Of a DNA stretch of 64,000 bases, positions 42,858 to 50,945 are shown one piece after another. Source of the stretch: Pseudanabaena sp. FACHB-1998 (lineage in GTDB: Bacteria > Cyanobacteriota > Cyanobacteriia > Pseudanabaenales > Pseudanabaenaceae); assembly GCF_014696355.1 (NCBI RefSeq), contig NZ_JACJQA010000006.1:124001-188000 (forward strand), read 5' to 3'. The translations under genes and the position numbers were made by a program. Within the stretch, counting starts at the first letter, position 1; each line of letters opens with the position of its first letter. The notes beneath the pieces were generated by a model. The model made no database searches and was not told the origin of the DNA. It saw only the letters and a list, made by a program, of their open reading frames with translations.

Positions 42858-43550
42858 TTAGAGTTCAAAATTAAAGCCATTTTGCTTGAGTTGTAGGTAT
42901 TTAGTCTCATCAAATTGGTATAACTTGGCGGCGCGATGGGATACACCCTGCTCTAACTCCCCAGTTTCGAGCAGTAAGTCCATGCAGAGAAGTTTTTTGC
43001 GAAAGTTACGTTTATCCAGATCGCGAGCAAGGACAGTTTCGTAAAGTTTTTGTAATTGCGTTAAGGTGAATTTTTTGGGCAACAATTCAAACCCAATGGG
43101 TTCATAACGAATTTTGCCACGGAGTCGGGCGATCGCCTTTTGTAAAATCTGCTCATGGTCAAAAGCTAAAGATGGTATGGCATGAAGTGGGAACCAATTA
43201 GCTTCTCGCGCATCGGTGGATGCTTGGATTTGTTGTTCAACGAGATTAATTAGCGCGTAATAGGCAACAGTAACAATGCGATCGCGAGGATCTCGCTCTA
43301 AATCACCAAAGGTATATAGCTGCTCCAAATAAACATCATGAATCCCCGTTTCTTCTTGCAATTCACGCAAAGCGGCTTGCTCTAAGGTTTCATCCACGCG
43401 AACAAATCCCCCAGGAATCGCCCATTGTCCTTGAAAGGGTGGGATATCGCGCTGAATTAACATAACTTTAAGTTCTAACTGGGCATCAAGCCCAAAGATG
43501 ATGCAATCCACTGTTAATGCGGGTCGGGGATATTCGTAGGTATAGGACAT
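42858..43550 (-). CDS. nrtR: NrtR-like Nudix domain plus winged-helix regulator
   Basis: A 230-aa protein. Residues 1-145 are a Nudix hydrolase domain with a complete Nudix box: [15 protein letters not shown] then RELQEETGI (G-x5-E-x7-REUxEExGU). Residues 150-225 ([31 protein letters not shown]) are the NrtR winged helix. NrtR proteins repress NAD biosynthesis and salvage operons and release DNA on binding ADP-ribose or related NAD derivatives. Many have lost hydrolase residues; here they look intact, so both activities are possible. It is divergent from the PP2C/ADP-ribosylglycohydrolase operon with a 109-bp intergenic region carrying a strong inverted repeat. Confidence 0.88.
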
Positions 43551-43563
43551 AGGTTTGGGGTAG

Positions 43564-43592
43564 GCAAAATTTCTGCCTAGCAGAAATTTTGC
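43564..43592. repeat. inverted repeat in the leader of the NrtR-like gene
   Basis: GCAAAATTTCTGC and its complement around CTA, 14 bases from the NrtR start codon. It may be an operator or a leader hairpin. Confidence 0.6.
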
Positions 43593-43601
43593 AAGTAATA
43601 G

Positions 43602-43653
43602 TTGACATAGTGTATAAATAACACTATATTAGTTTGTGTAGTTTATACACTAT
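43602..43653 (+). promoter_or_regulatory. sigma-70-type promoter with overlapping 12-bp inverted repeat (candidate NrtR operator)
   Basis: TTGACA at 43602-43607 and TATATT at 43625-43630 are 17 bases apart, ideal for a sigma-70 promoter, upstream of the PP2C gene start (43660). ATAGTGTATAAA (43607-43618) and TTTATACACTAT (43642-43653) are perfect inverted repeats with a 23-base spacer. A third ACACTAT half-site lies at 43621-43627, over the -10 box. A repressor bound here would block polymerase. That the repressor is the divergent NrtR-like protein is inference. Confidence 0.65.
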
Positions 43654-43659
43654 ATCGCG

Positions 43660-44505
43660 ATGCAAGAACAAGTAGATATTCTCGATGAGCGATCGCCACA
43701 AATTTCTAGCCCTTCTAGCAATTTGGCTAATCAATTTGAATATGCAAGCGGTTCCATCATCGGGCGTAATCATGTTCTGGCTAGCAAAAATAATCAGGAT
43801 GCTTATCAGATTTTTACTAATGAAAAATTTGTGATTGCGGTGGTGTGCGATGGCTGCGGCAGTGGTAAACATAGCGAAGTTGGTGCAAAGATCGGAGCGA
43901 AGCTAGTTATTGCGGAGATTAGCAATCTTCTCAATCATGATTTTGAACTATCTGATCCTGAATTTTGGAATCTGATTAAAGTTAATTTATTGCAAAAGTT
44001 AAAGGATTTAGTGGTGCTTACCAATGGCGATGTGGAATTTGTAAATGATTATTTATTATTTACGATTCTTGGTGTTGTGATTAAGGAGCGCCAAACAGTT
44101 ACTTTCTCAATGGGAGATGGCGCGATCGCTATCAATGGTGAACTTAATCAAATTCCACCCTATGCCGATAATGCACCGCCCTATCTTGCCTATGGTCTTT
44201 ACAAACCTGATGCGGTTAATTTTGAAATACGCGATCGCCTTCCAACATCAGAACTAGATTCCCTTCTCATCGCCACCGATGGCATTGATGATTTAGTAAA
44301 AGTTGAAGACATCAATCAATTTTGGCAAGAAGATCGTTATTTCAAAAATCCTGATGCCATCAGACGTAAGTTAGCGATGCTCAATCGGGAAGATGTCAAA
44401 CCTGATTGGCAAAAACGAGAAATAGTTAAGCGATCGGGTATTTTGTCCGATGATACGACTTTGGTGGTAATACGAAGACCCTCACCCCAAGCCCCTCTCC
44501 CATAG
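43660..44505 (+). CDS. PP2C-type protein serine/threonine phosphatase
   Basis: A 281-aa phosphatase of the PP2C superfamily, of the compact type found next to vWA and kinase-like genes. Motifs: GSIIGRNHVLASKNNQDAYQ (entry motif, metal-binding Asp), FVIAVVCDGCGSGKHSEVGA (central DGxxG), LLIATDGIDDL (third metal Asp) and LSDDTTLVVI (final Asp of the DD pair). All metal ligands seem present. The last six residues and the stop come from a 44-bp dispersed repeat (44477-44520), so the original end has been changed. It is the first gene of the operon-like array 43660-50945. Confidence 0.85.
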   Translation: MQEQVDILDERSPQISSPSSNLANQFEYASGSIIGRNHVLASKNNQDAYQIFTNEKFVIAVVCDGCGSGKHSEVGAKIGAKLVIAEISNLLNHDFELSDPEFWNLIKVNLLQKLKDLVVLTNGDVEFVNDYLLFTILGVVIKERQTVTFSMGDGAIAINGELNQIPPYADNAPPYLAYGLYKPDAVNFEIRDRLPTSELDSLLIATDGIDDLVKVEDINQFWQEDRYFKNPDAIRRKLAMLNREDVKPDWQKREIVKRSGILSDDTTLVVIRRPSPQAPLP

Positions 44506-44520
44506 GGCGAGGGGAGCAAG
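44477..44520. repeat. 44-bp CCCTCACCCC...GGGAGAGGGG repeat, copy 1 (overlaps gene end)
   Basis: GACCCTCACCCCAAGCCCCT then CTCCCATAGGGCGAGGGGAG, a palindrome CCCCTCTCCC...GGGCGAGGGG. It matches 47074-47117 at 40 of 44 positions by eye. It contains the stop codon of the PP2C gene. Confidence 0.9.
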
Positions 44521-44555
44521 AATATTTTTCCCTTTTATCTTTTTACTTGAAAATT

Positions 44556-45335
44556 ATGTTAGGCGCAATTGTCGGTGATATTGTCGGTTCCATTTACGAG
44601 TTTAATAATCATCGTTCTCAAGACTTTTCTCTTTTTGGTGAAGGATGTGATTTTACCGATGATACGGTTTTGACTGTGGCTGTGGCTGATTGCCTGATAA
44701 AGGCTGGAAATTATGCAGAATATATCAAACATTATGCGCGTAAATATCCACAGGTAAAAGGTGGGTATGGTGGCAGATTTGCTCAATGGATTCATTCTGA
44801 AAATATGGAACCTTACAGTAGTTGGGGTAATGGTTCCGCGATGCGAGTTAGCTCTATCGGATTTGCCTATGATGATTGGGAATCAGTAATGAACGAAGCA
44901 AAGCGATCATCGGAAGTTACGCATAATCATCCTGAAGGAATTAAAGGAGCGCAAGCAACGGCTGTTTCGATTTATATGGCGCGTAATGGTCAGAGTAAAG
45001 AGCAAATAAAAGCGGCGATCGCTAAATCCTTTGGTTATGACTTAGATAGAACTTTAGATGAAATTCGTCCTGTCTATGTATTTAATGAATCCTGTCAAGG
45101 GACAGTACCTGAAGCAATTATCGCCTTCTTAGAATCAGCGGATTTTGAAGATGCAATTCGCAATGCCGTTTCCCTTGGTGGTGATACCGATACCCTCACT
45201 TGTATTACGGGCGGTATTGCTGAAGCCTTTTATGGCGGTGTACCAAAGGATATAGCGGATAAAGCTTTAAGCTATTTACCCCAAGCAATGCGTGAAGTAG
45301 TTGAAGAATTTAGAACGAGGTATAGACTATGTTAG
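44556..45335 (+). CDS. ADP-ribosylglycohydrolase (DraG-like), copy 1
   Basis: A 259-aa enzyme predicted to hydrolyse ADP-ribosyl bonds on proteins, nucleic acids or small molecules. MLGAIVGDIVGSIYEF is the family start; the di-metal site is provided by DFTDDTVLTVAV (T-D-D) and LGGDTDTLTCITGGIAEAFY (GGDxDT). SWGNGSAMRVS and THNHPEGIKGAQATA are further signature blocks. All metal ligands are present. ATG 44556 is preferred over TTG 44547 because it aligns with the start of copy 2. The stop overlaps copy 2's start by seven bases, so translation is coupled. Confidence 0.9.
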   Translation: MLGAIVGDIVGSIYEFNNHRSQDFSLFGEGCDFTDDTVLTVAVADCLIKAGNYAEYIKHYARKYPQVKGGYGGRFAQWIHSENMEPYSSWGNGSAMRVSSIGFAYDDWESVMNEAKRSSEVTHNHPEGIKGAQATAVSIYMARNGQSKEQIKAAIAKSFGYDLDRTLDEIRPVYVFNESCQGTVPEAIIAFLESADFEDAIRNAVSLGGDTDTLTCITGGIAEAFYGGVPKDIADKALSYLPQAMREVVEEFRTRYRLC

Positions 45336-46117
45336 GCGCGATCGCTGGTGATATTATCGGCTCCATTTATGAAGTGCTTCCCATGAAGCGCAAAGATTTC
45401 AAACTATTCTCCTTTGGCAGTCATTTTAGTGATGATACCGTTCTTACTTATGCTGTTGCTCATTCCATTCTCACGGGAACTAGCTATGCGAGTAACTTCA
45501 AAAAATGCTTTTGGCGCTACCCTTTAGCAGGATTTGGACAGAGGTTTACTTGCTGGGCAATGCGAAATGGCAAGGAAGGATATAACAGTTGGGGTAATGG
45601 TGCGGCGATGCGAGTAAGTCCGATCGCATGGGCTTATGACAATCTCGAAGATGTTCTCAAAGAAGCAGAACGTTGCACCGCCACAACTCACAATCATCCT
45701 GAAGGTATCAAAGGCGGACAGGCGACATCGGCGGCGGTTTTCTTAGCGCGTCAAGGTAAGACTAAGCAAGAGATTCAAGATTATATTGAGCAAACTTTCG
45801 CTTACGATTTGAATCGCACCATCGATGAAATTCGTCCCAATTATAAGTTTGAAGTTTCCTGTCAAAAAAGTGTGCCTGAAGCAATTATTGCTTTTTTAGA
45901 ATCAACGGATTTTGAAGATGCGATTCGTAATGCGGTATCCCTTGGGGGAGACAGTGACACGATTGCCGCAATTACAGGAGGTATTGCTGAAGCCTTTTAT
46001 GGTGGTGTGCCTAATGTGATCGCGGTACAAGTATGGAAAAAACTAGATCGGCGGATTTGGAACACTGTGCTTGAGTTTAACGGAACTTATAACTTGCCTT
46101 GCTATTTGAAATATTAG
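45329..46117 (+). CDS. ADP-ribosylglycohydrolase (DraG-like), copy 2
   Basis: A 262-aa paralogue of the preceding gene with the same blocks: MLGAIAGDIIGSIYEV, HFSDDTVLTYAVAHS, SWGNGAAMRVSPIAWAYD, THNHPEGIKGGQAT and LGGDSDTIAAITGGIAEAFY. The ligands are again complete. Similarity is high in the motifs and lower between them, so this is a tandem duplication with time to diverge, perhaps in substrate (protein, nucleotide or ADP-ribosylated acid). It starts inside the end of copy 1 and ends 10 bases before the kinase gene. Confidence 0.9.
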   Translation: MLGAIAGDIIGSIYEVLPMKRKDFKLFSFGSHFSDDTVLTYAVAHSILTGTSYASNFKKCFWRYPLAGFGQRFTCWAMRNGKEGYNSWGNGAAMRVSPIAWAYDNLEDVLKEAERCTATTHNHPEGIKGGQATSAAVFLARQGKTKQEIQDYIEQTFAYDLNRTIDEIRPNYKFEVSCQKSVPEAIIAFLESTDFEDAIRNAVSLGGDSDTIAAITGGIAEAFYGGVPNVIAVQVWKKLDRRIWNTVLEFNGTYNLPCYLKY

Positions 46118-46127
46118 GCACAAAATC

Positions 46128-47987
46128 ATGGATATCTATCTTAATCAAAAGCGAATTAAAGTTAATCCTAAAAATGCGATCGGCAAAGGTGGCGAAGCAG
46201 ATATCTATGATCTCAAAAATGGGAAGGTTCTCAAATTATTTAAACCCTCCGATCATCCTGATTATGAGTTACTGCCCCAAGAACAATTGGCGGCTAAAGT
46301 CAGAATTGCTCTTCATCAGCAAAAATTACCTGCTTTTCCGCAAAATTTGCCTGTGAGAGTTATTAAACCTGAAACTTTAGCAAAGGATAAACAGGGAATG
46401 ATTCTCGGCTATGCAATGCCTTATTTGCAAAATACAGTTCCACTTTTGAAATATAGCGATCGCAATTATCGCCAAACTAACGCCATCTCGCAGCAATTTA
46501 TAACCGAACTATTTCGCGATCTTCATGAATCAGTCCTGAAAATTCATCAAGTCAATGTCACGATTGGCGATTTCAATGATTTGAATTTACTTGTTTCTCA
46601 AAATCAAGTCAATCTTATTGATGCTGATTCCTTTCAGTTTGGACAGTTTCCCTGTCAGGTTTTTACAGCGCGATTTGTTGATCCGATTTTGTGCGATCGC
46701 ACAGCCAATCAACCCATTCTTAATAGTCCCCATAATCCTGAATCTGACTGGTATGCCTTCACCGTGATGTTGATGCAGAGCCTCCTCTATGTCGATCCCT
46801 ATGGTGGTGTATACAAGCCCAAATCACAAACTGCAATGATTCCTCACAGTGCCAGACCTCTGCAAAGAATCACCGTTTTTCATCCCGATGTGCGCTATCC
46901 GAAACCTGCAATTCCTTACAAGGTTCTATCCGATGATTTATTACAGCATTTTCATAACTGCTTTGAAAAAGATTGGCGTGGAGACTTCCCACAGCAACTG
47001 CTCGAATCAATGCGGTGGACAAAATGTAATCAATGTGGAATTGAACATTTAAGAACTACTTGCCCAATTTGTAGACCCTCACCCCTAGCCCCTCTCCCAC
47101 AGGGAGAGGGGAACAAGATTGGAAAAACGTCTTGTAAGGTTTTACAGATTTTTCAAACCGAAGGCGTAATTCTTCAAGTCGCTTTACAAAACAATTCTCT
47201 CAATTATCTCTATCACGCTAACCACGAATTCAAACGTGAAGATAACACAGTCTTATTATCAGGAGAACTCGATGCTAGTATTCAATTCGCAATTTTTGGT
47301 AAGTCCACAATCGTTACCAAGCAAGGCAAAGCGCTTACACTCACGCAAGGACAACTACCGCAAGCGATCGCCGCCGAGCTAATCCGAGCCAATTCCTTCT
47401 CTCGCTATTGGATTGATCAAGGTCAATTACTCCGCGATGGCAAGCTAGGTAACGAATACATCGGCGATATTCTCGAAGGACAAACTCAGTTCTGGATTGG
47501 AGAGACTTTTGGTTTTGGCTTTTATCGAGCTGGTGCGATTAGTGTCGCTTTCACCTTTGATGCTAAGCGTGTGGGAATAGGCGATCGCGTAAATATTCCA
47601 CCCATTCAAGGAGAACTAATTGATGCAAATTGTGTCTTTAGCAATGACCTCTGCTGGTTCTTCACCGCCACCCAAGAGCAAGGCAACATCATCCATCGCG
47701 TTTCTGTGTTGCGCTCCAATGGTGACTTAGTAGCAACCCTTGCCGCACCTAAAGGCGATCGCGCATGGCTGATGAATATTCATGGCGGCAGTGCGATCGC
47801 GAATTGGCTATTCGTTCCCACTGACGAAGGTATCGCTAGAGTTGAGGTAAACAATGGACAGATTATGATTACAAAAACTTTCCCTGAAACTGAACCCTAT
47901 GTCGATAGCGGCTGTTCTCTAATCGTTAGCTCACAAGGTATCTATGTGATTCACTCACAGAAGATTATACAGTTACAATTGTCCTAG
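46128..47987 (+). CDS. protein kinase-like protein with zinc ribbon and C-terminal propeller-like region
   Basis: A 619-aa protein. Residues 10-290 are a kinase fold of the YegI-like type: IGKGGEADIYDL (G-loop, about 18-29), Lys36 in KVLKLFK, IGDFNDLNLLV (catalytic Asp148, Asn153) and LIDADSFQF (DFG-like Asp165). Four cysteines (300, 303, 312, 315 in CNQCGIEHLRTTCPIC) form a zinc ribbon. Directly after it lies RPSPLAPLPQGEG, the translation of a 44-bp dispersed repeat. Residues 330-619 are beta-rich and look like a propeller. The phosphatase, ADP-ribosylglycohydrolase and vWA neighbours point to a signalling system. Confidence 0.75.
   Translation: MDIYLNQKRIKVNPKNAIGKGGEADIYDLKNGKVLKLFKPSDHPDYELLPQEQLAAKVRIALHQQKLPAFPQNLPVRVIKPETLAKDKQGMILGYAMPYLQNTVPLLKYSDRNYRQTNAISQQFITELFRDLHESVLKIHQVNVTIGDFNDLNLLVSQNQVNLIDADSFQFGQFPCQVFTARFVDPILCDRTANQPILNSPHNPESDWYAFTVMLMQSLLYVDPYGGVYKPKSQTAMIPHSARPLQRITVFHPDVRYPKPAIPYKVLSDDLLQHFHNCFEKDWRGDFPQQLLESMRWTKCNQCGIEHLRTTCPICRPSPLAPLPQGEGNKIGKTSCKVLQIFQTEGVILQVALQNNSLNYLYHANHEFKREDNTVLLSGELDASIQFAIFGKSTIVTKQGKALTLTQGQLPQAIAAELIRANSFSRYWIDQGQLLRDGKLGNEYIGDILEGQTQFWIGETFGFGFYRAGAISVAFTFDAKRVGIGDRVNIPPIQGELIDANCVFSNDLCWFFTATQEQGNIIHRVSVLRSNGDLVATLAAPKGDRAWLMNIHGGSAIANWLFVPTDEGIARVEVNNGQIMITKTFPETEPYVDSGCSLIVSSQGIYVIHSQKIIQLQLS
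47074..47117. repeat. 44-bp CCCTCACCCC...GGGAGAGGGG repeat, copy 2 (inside kinase gene)
   Basis: GACCCTCACCCCTAGCCCCT then CTCCCACAGGGAGAGGGGAA. It is translated as RPSPLAPLPQGEG in frame, with no stop, just after the zinc ribbon. Copy 1 lies at the end of the phosphatase gene 2.6 kb upstream. Confidence 0.9.
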
Positions 47988-48009
47988 CAATATATTTGGG
48001 TGATCTGCC

Positions 48010-48606
48010 ATGTCCTACAGCGAATTTACCTTAGAGTCAGTTCAGACAGCCTTTGACCTCACAATTGCTGAACGTGCTAATTTACTAAACGATTCTCCCC
48101 TAGCAGAATCTAGTGAATTCCTAAACCAACTTCTCAAGGAATTTGTCCCTTTAGCGCTTGCCATGAATACCGAAAAAGCGCGGTCAGAGTTAATTATTGC
48201 GCCAATTTTAGTAGAAGTTCGCAAAAAATACTTAGACAAAGCGAGTTTATTCTCAGGCGTGGAACTAAATATTGATCGTGATTCTGGATTAAATGGAGTT
48301 TGTGATTTTCTACTTAGCCGATCGCCATCACAGCTAATGCTCAAAGCGCCTGTTGTGGTCGTAGTCGAGGCAAAAAAGGAAAATATCAACGGAGCGTTAG
48401 GTCAATGTATTGCGGAAATGTGGGCAGCAAAACTCTTTAATCAACAACATGAGAATGATATTTCTGTAATTTATGGAGCCGCCACTACTGGTAACGATTG
48501 GAAGTTTTTACGCCTTTGCGATCGCCTTGTCGAAATTGACTTAACTGAGTACCAACTCAGCAATATTGACAAAATTCTGGGCATTCTTTCTCTCTCTTTT
48601 CAATAA
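48010..48606 (+). CDS. PD-(D/E)XK nuclease-like protein, unknown function
   Basis: A 198-aa protein. NTEKARSELIIAPILVEVRK, then GVCDFLLSRSPSQL and VVVVEAKKENINGALGQCIA, followed by EMWAAKLFNQQ give the layout E-x(n)-D-x(n)-E-A-K of PD-(D/E)XK folds. A C-terminal WKFLRL segment follows. Similar cyanobacterial proteins are annotated as hypothetical; no activity is known to me. It is co-directional with the kinase (22-base gap) and hydrolase (24-base gap) genes, so it belongs to the same probable transcript. Confidence 0.55.
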   Translation: MSYSEFTLESVQTAFDLTIAERANLLNDSPLAESSEFLNQLLKEFVPLALAMNTEKARSELIIAPILVEVRKKYLDKASLFSGVELNIDRDSGLNGVCDFLLSRSPSQLMLKAPVVVVVEAKKENINGALGQCIAEMWAAKLFNQQHENDISVIYGAATTGNDWKFLRLCDRLVEIDLTEYQLSNIDKILGILSLSFQ

Positions 48607-48630
48607 TTTTAAAACAGGAGAACTCTAACC

Positions 48631-49683
48631 ATGACTAATCAAATTGTTACACAACTTCCAATTCCTGCCTTTTTTGATCGCCACAAAGTCGGTTCAGTAT
48701 GGCGCGTTCCCTATCAGGAACGGGCAAACCAAGCCGAAGCATGGGCAAAACAACATGGCATCACACCTGCCGCTAAAGATCGCAAGAAAATTTGTCTGAT
48801 GGCGATCGATGTGCAGAATACCTTTTGTATTCCTGATCATGAGCTATTTGTGGGTGGACGATCTGGCACTGGGGCGATCGAAGATAATGTGTGCCTGTGT
48901 GAATTTATCTATCGCAACTTGCACCACATCAGCGAAATTGCACCCACGATGGATACTCACACCGCCATGCAAATCTTCCATCCTATTTTTTGGGTGAATG
49001 ATGCGGGTGAACATCCCATTCCCAATGCTACATCGATTACCCTAGAAGATGTGCAGCAAGGTAAGTGGAAAGTAAATCCTGCGATCGCCTATAGTCTCGC
49101 TAAAGGTAACTACATGGCAATTCAGCGCCACGCCTTGCACTATGTACAGAAGCTTAGCGATGAAGGCAAGTTTCCGCTTACGGTTTGGGCTTATCACTCT
49201 ATGCTCGGCGGTATCGGTCACGCGCTAGTTTCTTCTGTTGAAGAAGCGATGTTCTTTCACAATATCGCAAGGCACAGTCAGACTAATTTCGAGATTAAAG
49301 GCGGCAATCCTCTCACTGAGAACTATTCCGTACTACGTCCTGAAGTCATGGATGGAGCCGATGGCAGACCGATCGCACAGAAGAACACGCGTTTCTTACA
49401 AAGGTTACTGGAATTTGATGCTGTAATCATTGCAGGTCAAGCTAAGAGCCATTGCGTTGCATGGACAATTCAAGACTTGCTCAGCGAAATCCTTGCTCAC
49501 GATCCTAAACTTGCGAAGAAGGTCTATCTACTTGAAGATTGCACTTCGCCTGTAGTTGTTCCTAATATTGTGGACTACACCGATCAAGCGGATGCAGCAT
49601 TTCAGCGCTTTGCTGATGCAGGTATGCACTTGGTTAAATCCACTGACGCAATGGAAACATGGGCAGATCTCAATCTTGCTTAA
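48631..49683 (+). CDS. isochorismatase-fold cysteine hydrolase (nicotinamidase-related)
   Basis: A 350-aa cysteine hydrolase. [11 protein letters not shown] (catalytic Asp, about residue 54), [13 protein letters not shown] (DxH metal site of nicotinamidases) and [20 protein letters not shown] (catalytic Cys about residue 280) are present. It is longer than ordinary nicotinamidases (about 200 aa) through a large insert between the metal motif and the nucleophile. In a cluster with an NrtR-like regulator and ADP-ribosylglycohydrolases, hydrolysis of nicotinamide or of an ADP-ribosyl-derived amide is plausible, but the substrate is not shown. RBS AGGAGAA precedes the ATG. Confidence 0.75.
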
Positions 49684-49710
49684 AGCGATCGCTAACAAGA
49701 GGTAAATTCT

Positions 49711-49872
49711 ATGATGAGTATTAATTTAGACTATGAGACAGAAAAATATCTAGTAGCAATTCTTGCGAAAGAAAATACCACCAGTTCAGAATTGATTGAA
49801 CGATTGCTCAGAGAATATTTAGAATCTATTCAATCTAAAAAAGGATTTTTTGAGCGACTGTTATCCTCCTAA
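49711..49872 (+). CDS. 53-aa helical protein, possible ribbon-helix-helix
   Basis: The peptide reads MMSINLDYETEKYLVAILAK then ENTTSSELIERLLREYLESI and ends FFERLLSS. The pattern of a short strand followed by two helices with SSELIERLLREYLES resembles CopG/Arc-type ribbon-helix-helix antitoxins or the antitoxin-like DNA-binding half of small operons. A Shine-Dalgarno-like AAGAGG lies 9 bases before the ATG. It sits 27 bases after the hydrolase stop, in the operon orientation. Its status as a real gene rests on spacing and codon pattern. Confidence 0.5.
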   Translation: MMSINLDYETEKYLVAILAKENTTSSELIERLLREYLESIQSKKGFFERLLSS

Positions 49873-49877
49873 TTATC

Positions 49878-50133
49878 CCTGTAGGGGCAGAGCATTCCTG
49901 CCACAATTTATAAATTTTCAGGTTGTCTCAATACAGGAATGCTCTGCCCATAACATCACAACGCAGGAACGATTTATCTGTGAAAGTTTAGCATCTTTAT
50001 TTGGGAATATTTTGCTAAAAACCTCATAACACATGGACAAATGGTCTGTGAAAGCGAAGAGGGTTCAGCATTTGCAAATTAAGATTTCTGTGAGATGTTC
50101 AAGATTGTGAGGCAAATGCTAAACCCCTACAGG
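49878..50133. repeat. 256-bp double-hairpin element (CCTGTAGGGGCAGAGCAT), copy 1
   Basis: Outer termini CCTGTAGGGGCAGAGCAT and ATGCTAAACCCCTACAGG are imperfect inverted repeats. Inside are GGGCAGAGCATTCCTG...CAGGAATGCTCTGCCC (49884-49951) and AGCGAAGAGGGTTCAGCATT...AATGCTAAACCCC. It shares blocks such as GTGAAAGCGAAGAGGGT with the copy at 58310-58492. Confidence 0.8.
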
Positions 50134-50171
50134 TCTACAAATTAAATCCATATCTCTAATTACTAAATAAA

Positions 50172-50945
50172 ATGACTAACATTAACGAACTATTTCAATC
50201 TGCTTTAGATGATGGAACCCTTTCCAATGAATCTTTGCAGGCTCTCACTGTTTACGACCTCGGCGCACAAATTCAAGCAGGGCTTGGCATTCATGTTGAT
50301 GATGTCATGTCTAGCGAAGTTGTATTAGTAACAATTATGCCCGATGACTCTGGCTCGATTCAATATGCTGGTAATGCTCAAGCTGTGCGCGGCGGACATA
50401 ACTCTGTAATTGATGCGCTGACTTCTTCTCAGCAACAGGATAATATTCTCATTCACAATCGCTATCTCAATGGAACAGTTCTCTATCCCTACTGCCCGAT
50501 CGCCCAAGCAATCAGGATGGACACTAAAAACTACTATCCTAATAAAGGTACACCCCTTTACGATCAAACTGTGGTGTTATTAGGAACAGTTTTAGCCAAG
50601 TCGCAGGAATTCTCTGATAATGGTGTGCCAGTGCGTACTGTGACCCTAATTATTACCGATGGTGATGATTGTGGCTCAATGCGTCACGGGGCTAAAGATG
50701 TGGCGGCGATCGCGCACGATATGTTGCGAATGGAAAATCACATTATTGCTGCGATGGGTATTGACGATGGCTCTACCAATTTCCGTCAAGTATTTAAAGA
50801 TATGGGTATTCGCGATGAATGGATTCTTACTCCTGCGAATAGTGACGGTGAAATTCGGAAGGCTTTTCAGGTATTCTCGCAGTCAGCGATGCGCGTAAGT
50901 CAGAGTGCGGCTAACTTTAATTCTTTAGGCGGATTTGGGGCTTAG
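50172..50945 (+). CDS. von Willebrand factor A domain protein (TerY/YegL-like)
   Basis: A 257-aa single-domain vWA protein. VVLVTIMPDDSGSIQYAGNA carries the metal-dependent adhesion site DxSxS (DDSGSI), and TLIITDGDDCGSMRHGAKDV supplies the downstream Asp. The layout is that of YegL/TerY-type vWA proteins that work with a PP2C phosphatase and a kinase-like protein. It is separated from the rest of the cluster by a repeat element (299 bp), so it may have its own promoter or be read through. Terminator hairpin at the stop. Confidence 0.82.
   Translation: MTNINELFQSALDDGTLSNESLQALTVYDLGAQIQAGLGIHVDDVMSSEVVLVTIMPDDSGSIQYAGNAQAVRGGHNSVIDALTSSQQQDNILIHNRYLNGTVLYPYCPIAQAIRMDTKNYYPNKGTPLYDQTVVLLGTVLAKSQEFSDNGVPVRTVTLIITDGDDCGSMRHGAKDVAAIAHDMLRMENHIIAAMGIDDGSTNFRQVFKDMGIRDEWILTPANSDGEIRKAFQVFSQSAMRVSQSAANFNSLGGFGA

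Follow-up and report, generated by a model that had tools for sequence, protein, structure and literature searches.

A conserved kinase, phosphatase and vWA gene module around a predicted nicotinamidase in cyanobacteria and viral contigs

Gene content of the locus

The window, i.e., the whole stretch of 64,000 nucleotides analyzed here from contig NZ_JACJQA010000006.1 of Pseudanabaena sp. FACHB-1998, carries an NrtR gene on the minus strand, divergent from a plus-strand run in the order PP2C-ARH1-ARH2-KIN-PD-(D/E)XK-NIC-53-aa ORF-VWA. The genes and putative control elements are the following:

42858..43550, minus strand: NrtR-type repressor (Pfam NUDIX 3.2e-22, NrtR_WHD 1e-27; intact Nudix box)
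43602..43630, plus strand: promoter-like TTGACA-17-TATATT ahead of the operon (11/12 consensus matches)
43607..43627, no strand: candidate operator 1, palindrome ATAGTGT-N7-ACACTAT, extending over the promoter spacer into both hexamers
43634..43652, no strand: candidate operator 2, one mismatch (genome palindrome search)
43660..44505, plus strand: PP2C-type phosphatase (PP2C_2 1.8e-21)
44547..45335, plus strand: ARH1, ADP-ribosylglycohydrolase, ATG at 44556, optional (Pfam ADP_ribosyl_GH 8.5e-36)
45329..46117, plus strand: ARH2, ADP-ribosylglycohydrolase, optional paralogue (Pfam ADP_ribosyl_GH 2.4e-36)
46128..47987, plus strand: KIN, Ser/Thr-kinase-like domain with zinc ribbon and probable beta-propeller (hhalign with YegI, model)
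48010..48606, plus strand: PD-(D/E)XK protein, passenger (PADLOC PD_DExK model 1.9e-48)
48631..49683, plus strand: NIC, nicotinamidase-fold hydrolase, module core (structural ranking, active-site residues, gene context)
49711..49872, plus strand: 53-aa ORF, ribbon-helix-helix-like by eye, genus-level (relatives 77-98%)
50172..50945, plus strand: VWA, vWA-like protein (complete MIDAS D58xS60xS62, T127, D163)

Pfam, PADLOC and motif evidence place all genes named in a preliminary description of this DNA where it had put them, namely NrtR, PP2C, two ARHs, KIN with a four-cysteine ribbon that is conserved in its relatives, PD-(D/E)XK and the isochorismatase-like and vWA-like proteins. Its count of eight close co-directional genes is reached only with the 53-aa ORF. 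The spacing from PP2C to VWA is 50, -7, 10, 22, 24, 27 and 299 nt in order (ARH1 taken from its ATG), so that the genes are indeed close at gaps of -7 to 50 nt, but the step into VWA is not short.

NIC as a predicted nicotinamidase

NIC matched no Pfam family at E 0.01 and was not among the matches when its own genome was searched with PF00857 up to an E value of 10. With the AF2 model of the protein (pLDDT 79.1), ranks 1-5 of a Foldseek search were all nicotinamidases, and the best 13 of 50 entries listed by VIA-align were nicotinamidases as well (Z 16.7-12.8), the lowest of these being on a par with the other isochorismatases that follow from Z 12.7 downward. An hhalign comparison with E. 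coli PncA (3.9e-6) aligned WxxH, KGxNPLxxxYS and the Cys. Residues D60, D108, H110, H189, K223 and C275 are identical in 50/50 aligned rows, E. coli PncA among them, and H117 is kept in 43/50; we take these residues to form the Asp-Lys-Cys triad and the Asp-His-His-His metal site of NIC and PncA. NIC thus resembles PncA/Pnc1 of the isochorismatase superfamily in its predicted fold, triad and metal site and, for cyanobacterial NIC, in the KGxNPLxxxYS motif, while it differs in its length (350 aa vs 213 aa in E. coli PncA, with an N-terminal extension and insertions), in lacking a PF00857 match and in its linkage to KIN, PP2C and vWA genes. Its best structural matches, the triad and metal-site residues that it has in common with PncA, and the NAD-synthesis genes found by some relatives (see below) make NIC very probably a nicotinamidase, whose substrate would be nicotinamide.

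It might be argued that the substrate of NIC is a different amide, such as a compound derived from ADP-ribose or a pyridine formed only under stress, and that the operon is not concerned with NAD salvage proper. The size of the protein, its position beyond the reach of Pfam and the replacement of the H117 ligand in 7/25 viral rows would fit such a deviation. Set against this are the fold ranking, the triad and metal-site residues and the PncB, NadE, NadK and Prs neighbors, and we give this explanation only a slim chance.

The genome of the strain itself contains one NAPRTase match and two strong PF00857 matches, plus one more at chance level. Both strong matches are of the ureidoacrylate/biuret-hydrolase type by eye, one of them adjoining an ABC-transporter gene, and the idea that NIC is redundant with an ordinary PncA was therefore dropped.

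Kinase, phosphatase and vWA protein

KIN gave only a weak Pkinase match (0.0019), which is under the Pfam cut-off; its residues 15-317 align with E. coli YegI (hhalign 1.8e-12). K36, D148, D165 and the four zinc-ribbon cysteines are invariant in 22 sequences, and N153 is nearly so. The C-terminal part (336-618) is all-beta in the model, and the Foldseek list obtained with it consists mostly of what we take to be beta-propeller proteins. PP2C matches E. coli PphC (YegK) by BLASTP at 1e-5 with 23% over 142 aa, and the Yeg-like character ascribed earlier to both kinase and phosphatase is thereby confirmed. VWA had no Pfam match at 0.01 and a weak hhalign match with YegL (E 0.0023, prob 13%); it is classified as a vWA protein because its MIDAS motif is complete, and this motif is invariant in a 7-sequence alignment.

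These three proteins recall the YegI-PphC(YegK)-YegL triad, to which the name TerY-P presumably applies, in the homology of KIN to YegI over 300 residues, the PphC-related PP2C and the vWA-like partner. They differ from it in the probable beta-propeller of KIN and in a VWA family that is far from YegL and was seen only with NIC; moreover, the phylum also has Yeg-type sets that are separate from them. We know of no established client of Yeg/TerY-P-type triads.

Conservation of the gene set

Among 386 genomes of the phylum, NIC was present in 94, full-length KIN in 12 and VWA in 13, and all 12 KIN genomes and all 13 VWA genomes were also NIC-positive. For KIN, this constant association corresponds to P = 2.5e-8 with kinship ignored, and in 11/12 KIN genomes the three genes are adjacent. 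In a bacterial scan with 80 of 486 matches listed, a sample with the deep bacterial relatives outside it, NIC sits between KIN and VWA in 23/23 of the listed loci having all three. The module core is PP2C-KIN-NIC-VWA. The gene set is no chance juxtaposition, as further genera and viral contigs show the order KIN-NIC-VWA again, and the neighborhood check proposed in the preliminary description has thus come out in favor of co-occurrence. No match to KIN was found on plasmids.

An alternative explanation would be that KIN, PP2C and the vWA protein constitute a generic Yeg/TerY-P-like stress unit whose kinase targets other proteins, with NIC simply co-regulated through a common promoter and ligand because all respond to the NAD state. 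KIN and PP2C are, after all, relatives of YegI and PphC, NIC occurs alone in many cyanobacteria, and Yeg-type sets without NIC are found in the phylum, where 18/23 kinase-paralogue loci contain a PphC-like gene and 0/23 contain NIC (1.5-kb flanks). Against such a unit speak the presence of NIC in all 12 genomes with full-length KIN and all 13 with the VWA family, its place between the two in 23/23 of the listed bacterial loci, and the fact that the set moves as one in viral contigs. We therefore regard a generic unit as unlikely, albeit deserving of some weight.

NIC does not need the triad, as three bacterial loci contain NIC-VWA without KIN and 47/80 contain NIC without any of the five partners sought (both among the 80 of 486 matches listed). 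NAD genes accompany several relatives, in the orders NrtR-NIC-PncB (L112), KIN-NIC-VWA-NadK-PncB-like-Prs (L105) and cassette-NrtR-PncB-Prs-NadE (L038). For stand-alone NICs, no NAD gene was prominent among the commonest neighbor families listed, which counts against an NAD link at those loci. Mostly dihydrolipoamide-dehydrogenase-like and membrane-protein genes (named by eye) adjoin the stand-alone NICs of one cyanobacterial group (21 loci). Recurrence over the NIC tree amounts to 11 label changes, with at least 4 forced by starred branches; stand-alone NIC may be read as a derived state after loss of the switch, on a tree whose root on E. coli PncA is a branch of about 8 changes per column, so that long branches may meet. 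Mutual exclusion of NIC and NadV is hinted at by a weak signal (0/11, P 0.044, uncorrected and with phylogeny ignored).

The remaining genes of the operon are less constant. ARH genes occur in 14/25 KIN-bearing loci and are missing from 11/25 (among the 80 of 486 matches listed); the two ARHs counted as part of the system in the preliminary description are thus both present but optional, and lie outside the module core. The PD-(D/E)XK gene, found in 6/25 KIN-bearing loci that are all Pseudanabaena-type (among the 80 of 486 matches listed), is a genus-level passenger; one further copy, in L073, lies 3′ of NIC on the opposite strand. The DNA-end function that had been considered for its product was abandoned on these grounds. 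Relatives of the 53-aa ORF (77-98%) were seen in Pseudanabaena-type loci only (among L033-L118).

This distribution also bears on the possibility that the locus is a cyanobacterial system centered on an ADP-ribosylglycohydrolase (ARG), removing the ADP-ribose that viral transferases attach to host proteins. Such predicted counter-ADP-ribosylation systems, as outlined in section 3.8 of PMC9503650, combine a Nudix or WYL repressor, an ARG, a phosphatase, a vWA chaperone and a nuclease, and the window likewise has a Nudix repressor, ARH genes, a phosphatase, a vWA gene and a nuclease-fold gene. In that section, however, the ARG is the constant center, whereas here ARH is optional, the nuclease gene is missing from 19/25 KIN-bearing loci (among the 80 of 486 matches listed), and kinase and nicotinamidase form part of the core. 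Furthermore, the phosphatase class differs, protein kinase and nicotinamidase lie outside the gene set given in section 3.8 of PMC9503650, and copies of the module itself are present on contigs with phage hallmarks, which makes this explanation improbable.

NrtR, promoter and operator

According to Pfam and PDB sequence comparison, NrtR consists of a Nudix domain fused to the NrtR winged helix. Its closest PDB sequences are 5bs6 (1.2e-55) and then 3gz5 (3.6e-37), which we take to be BtAraR, an arabinose regulator, and SoNrtR, respectively; with an arabinose regulator as nearest solved relative, family membership does not give the ligand. NrtR regulons of NAD metabolism were reportedly described by Rodionov in 2008. 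The locus shares with them a repressor of Nudix and winged-helix parts whose gene is divergent to an operon for NAD salvage, as predicted here, and a palindrome at the promoter, and is unlike them in that the operon holds a phospho-module. The Nudix box GX5EX7REXXEEXG is present in 23/25 NrtR sequences (window included); of the remaining two, one is truncated and one divergent. NAD-type NrtRs, in contrast to the window protein, have an impaired Nudix box according to PMC4666351, which also assigns arabinose and xylose regulators to the family and describes the S. oneidensis and Synechocystis NrtRs as ADP-ribose-responsive. The ligand of the window NrtR might thus be ADP-ribose (or NAD).

The promoter-like sequence is the best among 17 sites of the region, a number that is not above that of shuffles (mean 19.9). 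The exact palindrome TAGTGT-N7-ACACTA exists as a single copy in the 4.78-Mb assembly, at the operon promoter. A palindrome of this type was found in 18/31 scanned NrtR upstream regions (window included) and was absent, under the search rule used, from 13/31. With up to one mismatch it occurs at 5 places in the genome, 2 of them at the operon promoter, compared with 13 for a reversed control pattern; the loose matches are therefore meaningless and the exact copy alone is distinctive. A role of NrtR as genome-wide regulator in this strain is unsupported by these counts.

Occurrence in viral contigs

The preliminary description had not foreseen that the module also occurs in viral contigs. KIN is present in 28/30 viral NIC loci and VWA in 29/30, in two of these (one phage, L167/L181) by eye only, and of the 12 viral KIN loci, 11 are on contigs that also have NIC. 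Hallmarks of phage structure or packaging were found in 14/23 viral records examined. As none was clear in 9/23 and the hallmark families also match in 3 to 11 of 14 control genomes of cellular organisms, some of the viral records may be bacterial or proviral. A search of a phage-record collection with KIN (L133 copy) gave only two weak matches and no named isolate with a type-1 module.

In viral contigs PncB was seen beside PP2C, with NadE and NadD-like genes around the cassette; of the 24 distinct viral NIC loci, just 5 have genes of NAD biosynthesis within 8 kb. No ORF best-matching one cyanobacterial NadV query was found in the 30 viral NIC loci (BLASTP 1e-6, flanks up to 8 kb). Phage reconstitution of NAD+ is known from NARP1, an Adps and Namat pair that restores NAD against NADase defense (PMC12774641, PMC13232231), and NadV-NadM/NadR (PMC9503650). 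Both resemble the module in that phage genes rebuild NAD from nicotinamide onward, whereas the NIC module would take a deamidating route via nicotinate and brings its own kinase, phosphatase and vWA protein.

Proposed function

Taken together, we favor, at a probability of roughly 60%, an NAD-salvage module in which KIN, PP2C and the vWA protein set the output of NIC; in cyanobacteria it would be controlled by NrtR, and in phages it might serve to rebuild NAD. NIC would convert nicotinamide left from NAD consumption to nicotinate, which then enters the Preiss-Handler route (PncB, NadD, NadE). KIN and PP2C would act as an opposed pair, with the vWA protein as metal-dependent adaptor, and together set the activity or assembly of NIC. 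In cyanobacteria, NrtR bound to the promoter-overlapping palindrome would keep the operon off until ADP-ribose (or NAD), signaling NAD breakdown, releases it; where present, the ARHs might strip ADP-ribose from proteins and so feed this signal. In large phages, the same four-gene module may rebuild NAD during infection, which suggests that cyanobacteria and large phages share a switchable way to do so. The preliminary description had proposed stress signaling that joins phosphorylation with NAD/ADP-ribose turnover; the genes are joined as it said, but NAD-salvage control is the better reading.

More tentatively, and at less than even odds, the module could be a phage route from nicotinamide via nicotinate to NAD, new as far as we know and used by large phages against NAD-depleting immunity, in which KIN, PP2C and the vWA protein switch the nicotinamidase on under NAD destruction. 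Cyanobacteria would then hold a host copy placed on an ADP-ribose-sensing repressor with intact Nudix box, and their many stand-alone nicotinamidases would be remnants left after loss of the switch.

The literature searched contained no description of this gene set, nor of an operon of nicotinamidase, vWA and protein kinase genes, and we know of no nicotinamidase that has a bacterial Ser/Thr kinase and phosphatase dedicated to it. As one Yeg/TerY-P-type set is here tied to a single assayable enzyme, the questions of client and of nicotinamidase control become directly testable. With the phage copies by PncB, NadE and NadD-like genes, a deamidating route would join the means by which phages are known to counter NAD depletion. 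In a gut phage paper, a table contains the entry 'Nicotinamidase'.

Gene set and conservation in bacteria

All genes that the preliminary description had named were present in the window, with NrtR on the minus strand and, divergent from it on the plus strand, PP2C, the ADP-ribosylglycohydrolases ARH1 and ARH2, KIN, PD-(D/E)XK, NIC, a 53-aa ORF and VWA, separated by 50, -7, 10, 22, 24, 27 and 299 nt. The host assembly comprises 4.78 Mb in 64 contigs and is closest to Pseudanabaena (98% identity of NIC to that of Pseudanabaena sp. SR411).

42858-43550, minus strand: NrtR, Nudix and winged-helix regulator
43660-44505, plus strand: PP2C, phosphatase
46128-47987, plus strand: KIN, YegI-like kinase
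48010-48606, plus strand: PD-(D/E)XK, nuclease-fold gene
48631-49683, plus strand: NIC, nicotinamidase-fold hydrolase
49711-49872, plus strand: 53-aa ORF
50172-50945, plus strand: VWA, vWA-like protein

An initial search yielded full-length KIN in 7 of 194 genomes. NrtR, KIN, NIC and VWA were each found at all seven loci, PP2C at six, ARH at four and PD-(D/E)XK at one, the window's own. Among 386 genomes of the phylum, NIC was detected in 94 (some as fragments), full-length KIN in 12 (one cut at its end) and VWA in 13 (one weak). NIC was present in every KIN genome (12/12; hypergeometric P 2.5e-8, kinship ignored) and in every VWA genome (13/13), and KIN, NIC and VWA were neighbours in 11 of the 12 KIN genomes; in the remaining genome, each of them lies on a separate contig. 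From a NIC-profile scan of named genomes, the best 80 of 486 relatives were kept, of which 25 loci contained KIN (tblastn). VWA was found in 23 of these, and in the remaining two the contig stops 404 and 9 bases past NIC; NrtR was present in 19/25 and ARH in 14/25. All 23 loci with KIN, NIC and VWA have these genes on the same strand, with KIN 5′ and VWA 3′ of NIC. The other loci among these best 80 contained VWA without KIN (3), NrtR only (3), NrtR and ARH (1), NrtR and PP2C (1) or none of the five partners (47).

When presence of the cassette (core PP2C-KIN-NIC-VWA) was mapped as a label onto an 82-row NIC tree, it required 11 changes, with the starred branches requiring at least four; none of 500 shuffles reached so low a number. 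Pairwise distances of KIN, NIC and VWA were correlated (r 0.83-0.88; 0/2000 permutations) across 15 taxa, in which the window is the sole representative of its clade, as expected under joint inheritance. Reduced forms, namely NrtR-ARH-NIC in Pseudanabaena biceps (L074), NrtR-PP2C-NIC in Oscillatoriales USR001 (L096) and NrtR-NIC (L061, L066), look like stages of cassette loss or gain.

The cassette in viral contigs

A kinase scan of IMG/VR gave seven loci with full-length KIN relatives (32-47%), all with PP2C, KIN and NIC and six with the same VWA family. A viral NIC scan yielded 30 loci (24 distinct at 95%), with KIN in 28 (missing from L162 and from L180, which stops after VWA) and VWA in 29, the one locus lacking a match being L170. 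For L167 and L181, from one phage, the vWA protein was assigned by eye with no family match. Of 12 loci in a second viral kinase scan, 11 lay on NIC contigs, and for the remaining one the match was confined to the kinase domain. Two gene orders recur: the cyanobacterial order PP2C-KIN-NIC-VWA, and NIC-VWA-PP2C-KIN, which occurs whole or in part in four phage records, three of them 462-595 kb long. Some loci deviate from both orders, among them L158 and L163 with VWA-PP2C-KIN-NIC.

Each of 23 records was examined for viral hallmarks by one or more incomplete tests, and 14 had a structural or packaging match with E < 1e-5. The hallmarks were head and tape-measure in G387, portal in G388, both terminase and portal in G389, Baseplate_J in G392, G395, G397, G398 and G408, and terminase in G390, G393, G396, G400, G402 and G407 as well as, additionally, in G392 and G395. 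The cassettes of G387 and G390 are near-identical. In the other nine records, hallmarks were absent or matched only weakly. G386, with a bacterial-looking gene (by eye), may be misclassed as viral. Since the same families match cellular control genomes (PF03237 6/14, Baseplate_J 3/14, phrog_2 11/14), a single hallmark match does not by itself set a record apart from proviral or bacterial DNA.

When E. coli PncA served as the outgroup, the cyanobacterial NICs, both cassette-linked and cassette-free, grouped together inside a grade made up of cassette NICs from viruses. This topology suggests that the module is old in the NIC family and that the stand-alone cyanobacterial NIC was derived through loss, a reading that is provisional because of long branches, a midpoint root and narrow sampling.

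Additionally, the 318-kb record G392 (L141/L142) carries groEL-like, 2-aminooxy-adenylosuccinate-synthetase-like, peptide deformylase and translation-initiation-factor-like genes. A single protein resembling ADP-ribosylglycohydrolases (PHROG 6572, best E 8.4e-52) was found in the 40 kb sampled from the cassette contig of the 545-kb record G389 (L143/L144). In L138 (7891-8436) and L165 (9864-10367), NIC and VWA are separated or flanked by a macro-domain-like protein (by eye), with no Pfam match and a match to PHROG 335 'phosphatase' (2.6e-29).

NIC and NAD-related neighbours

NIC matched no Pfam or NCBIfam family at 0.01. Its AF2 model, built from 40 sequences (pLDDT 79, pTM 0.80), retrieved nicotinamidases as all top five Foldseek entries and all top 13 VIA-align entries (Z 16.7-12.8, rmsd 2.7-3.3, 172-216 residues). 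Further down the list, starting at Z 12.7, are other isochorismatase-like enzymes, so that the nicotinamidase lead is clear just at the top. Alignment to E. coli PncA gave an hhalign value of 3.9e-6. All 50 rows of the joint alignment share the residues of the PncA triad and metal site, apart from H117, in place of which 7 of the 25 viral NIC rows have F, V or Y.

NAD-biosynthesis genes lie within 8 kb of NIC in five of the 24 distinct viral loci (L153, L155, L164, L165, L170), and NADAR within 8 kb in L163 and L170. Pfam confirmed PncB in L133, NadE and a CTP_transf_like protein in L138 and NADAR in L135; the remaining viral assignments are from BLASTP alone. Three further loci combine NIC with such genes: PP2C-KIN-NIC-VWA-NrtR-PncB-Prs-NadE in another class of the phylum (L038, genome with 9% contamination), KIN-NIC-VWA-NadK-PncB-like-Prs (L105, titled Aminicenantes) and NrtR-NIC-PncB (L112, titled Proteobacteria), the latter two being metagenome bins whose titles may be wrong. 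The commonest neighbour families of stand-alone cyanobacterial NICs included no NAD genes. The window's own genome contains one match for nicotinate phosphoribosyltransferase. At 21 loci (L066, L071, L080-L115), NIC lies near dihydrolipoamide-dehydrogenase-like and membrane-protein genes (named by eye); of these, L066 and L096 are NrtR- or PP2C-linked and the rest stand-alone.

Kinase, phosphatase and vWA protein

Homology between KIN and E. coli YegI extends across 15-317 (hhalign 1.8e-12), with K36, D148, D165 and four ribbon cysteines invariant in 22 sequences and N153 nearly so. In its model (pLDDT 73.6, pTM 0.49), the kinase domain is poorly modelled in its second half, the C-terminal 280 residues are all-beta with fair confidence, and beta-propeller proteins dominate the Foldseek list. 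PP2C is related to PphC; VWA has a complete MIDAS motif and a weak tie to YegL. Other kinases of the phylum are accompanied by ordinary Yeg-type sets: a PphC-like gene was found in 18/23 loci and NIC in 0/23 (1.5-kb flanks). Cyanobacterial genomes thus sampled (L010-L032) hold separate Yeg-type kinase-PP2C-vWA sets.

NrtR and its candidate operator

The Nudix box of NrtR was intact in 23/25, unlike that of the NAD-type NrtRs described in PMC4666351, where it is impaired; one NAD-type NrtR is described as having lost hydrolase activity (PMC6800001). NrtR might therefore be a repressor that also hydrolyses the ligand it responds to. A match to PADLOC PDC-S07 (7.7e-9) was additionally obtained with its Nudix domain.

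43602-43630, plus strand: promoter-like TTGACA-17-TATATT, 11/12 consensus matches, top site of the region
43607-43627: palindrome ATAGTGT-N7-ACACTAT, 21 bases, covering the promoter spacer
43634-43652: second copy with one mismatch, 3′ of the first

The region contains 17 promoter-like sites, a count not above chance (shuffle mean 19.9). The exact palindrome core occurs once in the whole assembly; with one mismatch allowed, it occurs at 5 places, versus 13 for a reversed control pattern. Under the script's rule, 18 of the 31 upstream regions have the palindrome before NrtR. Of these 18, 11 are Pseudanabaena-type, counting the window, and they also include cases where NrtR faces a different first gene (KIN in L037, NIC itself in L061). 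As it is absent from 13/31 regions (200 bases scanned each; L034, L035, L038, L048, L052, L058, L066, L068, L074, L077, L084, L096, L112, with L034 and L048, one organism, both counted), the operator is not universal. An RNase H-like gene (PF13482; 41986-42696) adjoins NrtR, is 79-97% identical in Pseudanabaena-type loci and is retained even with a reduced cassette (L074, L078).

Proposed mechanism

In the genomes and loci searched, dependence is one-way: NIC was seen without the triad of KIN, PP2C and VWA, but full-length KIN never without NIC. Based on this distribution, NIC is likely the client of the triad. NAD consumption yields nicotinamide and ADP-ribose, of which the latter would release NrtR from the promoter and the former would be routed by NIC to nicotinate, with KIN, PP2C and VWA tuning NIC output faster than transcription could.

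The literature searched, which covered few subscription papers, contained no description of a nicotinamidase with this triad. The component parts are all of known kinds, and the closest published idea is section 3.8 of PMC9503650, whose systems differ from the present module in their constant members.
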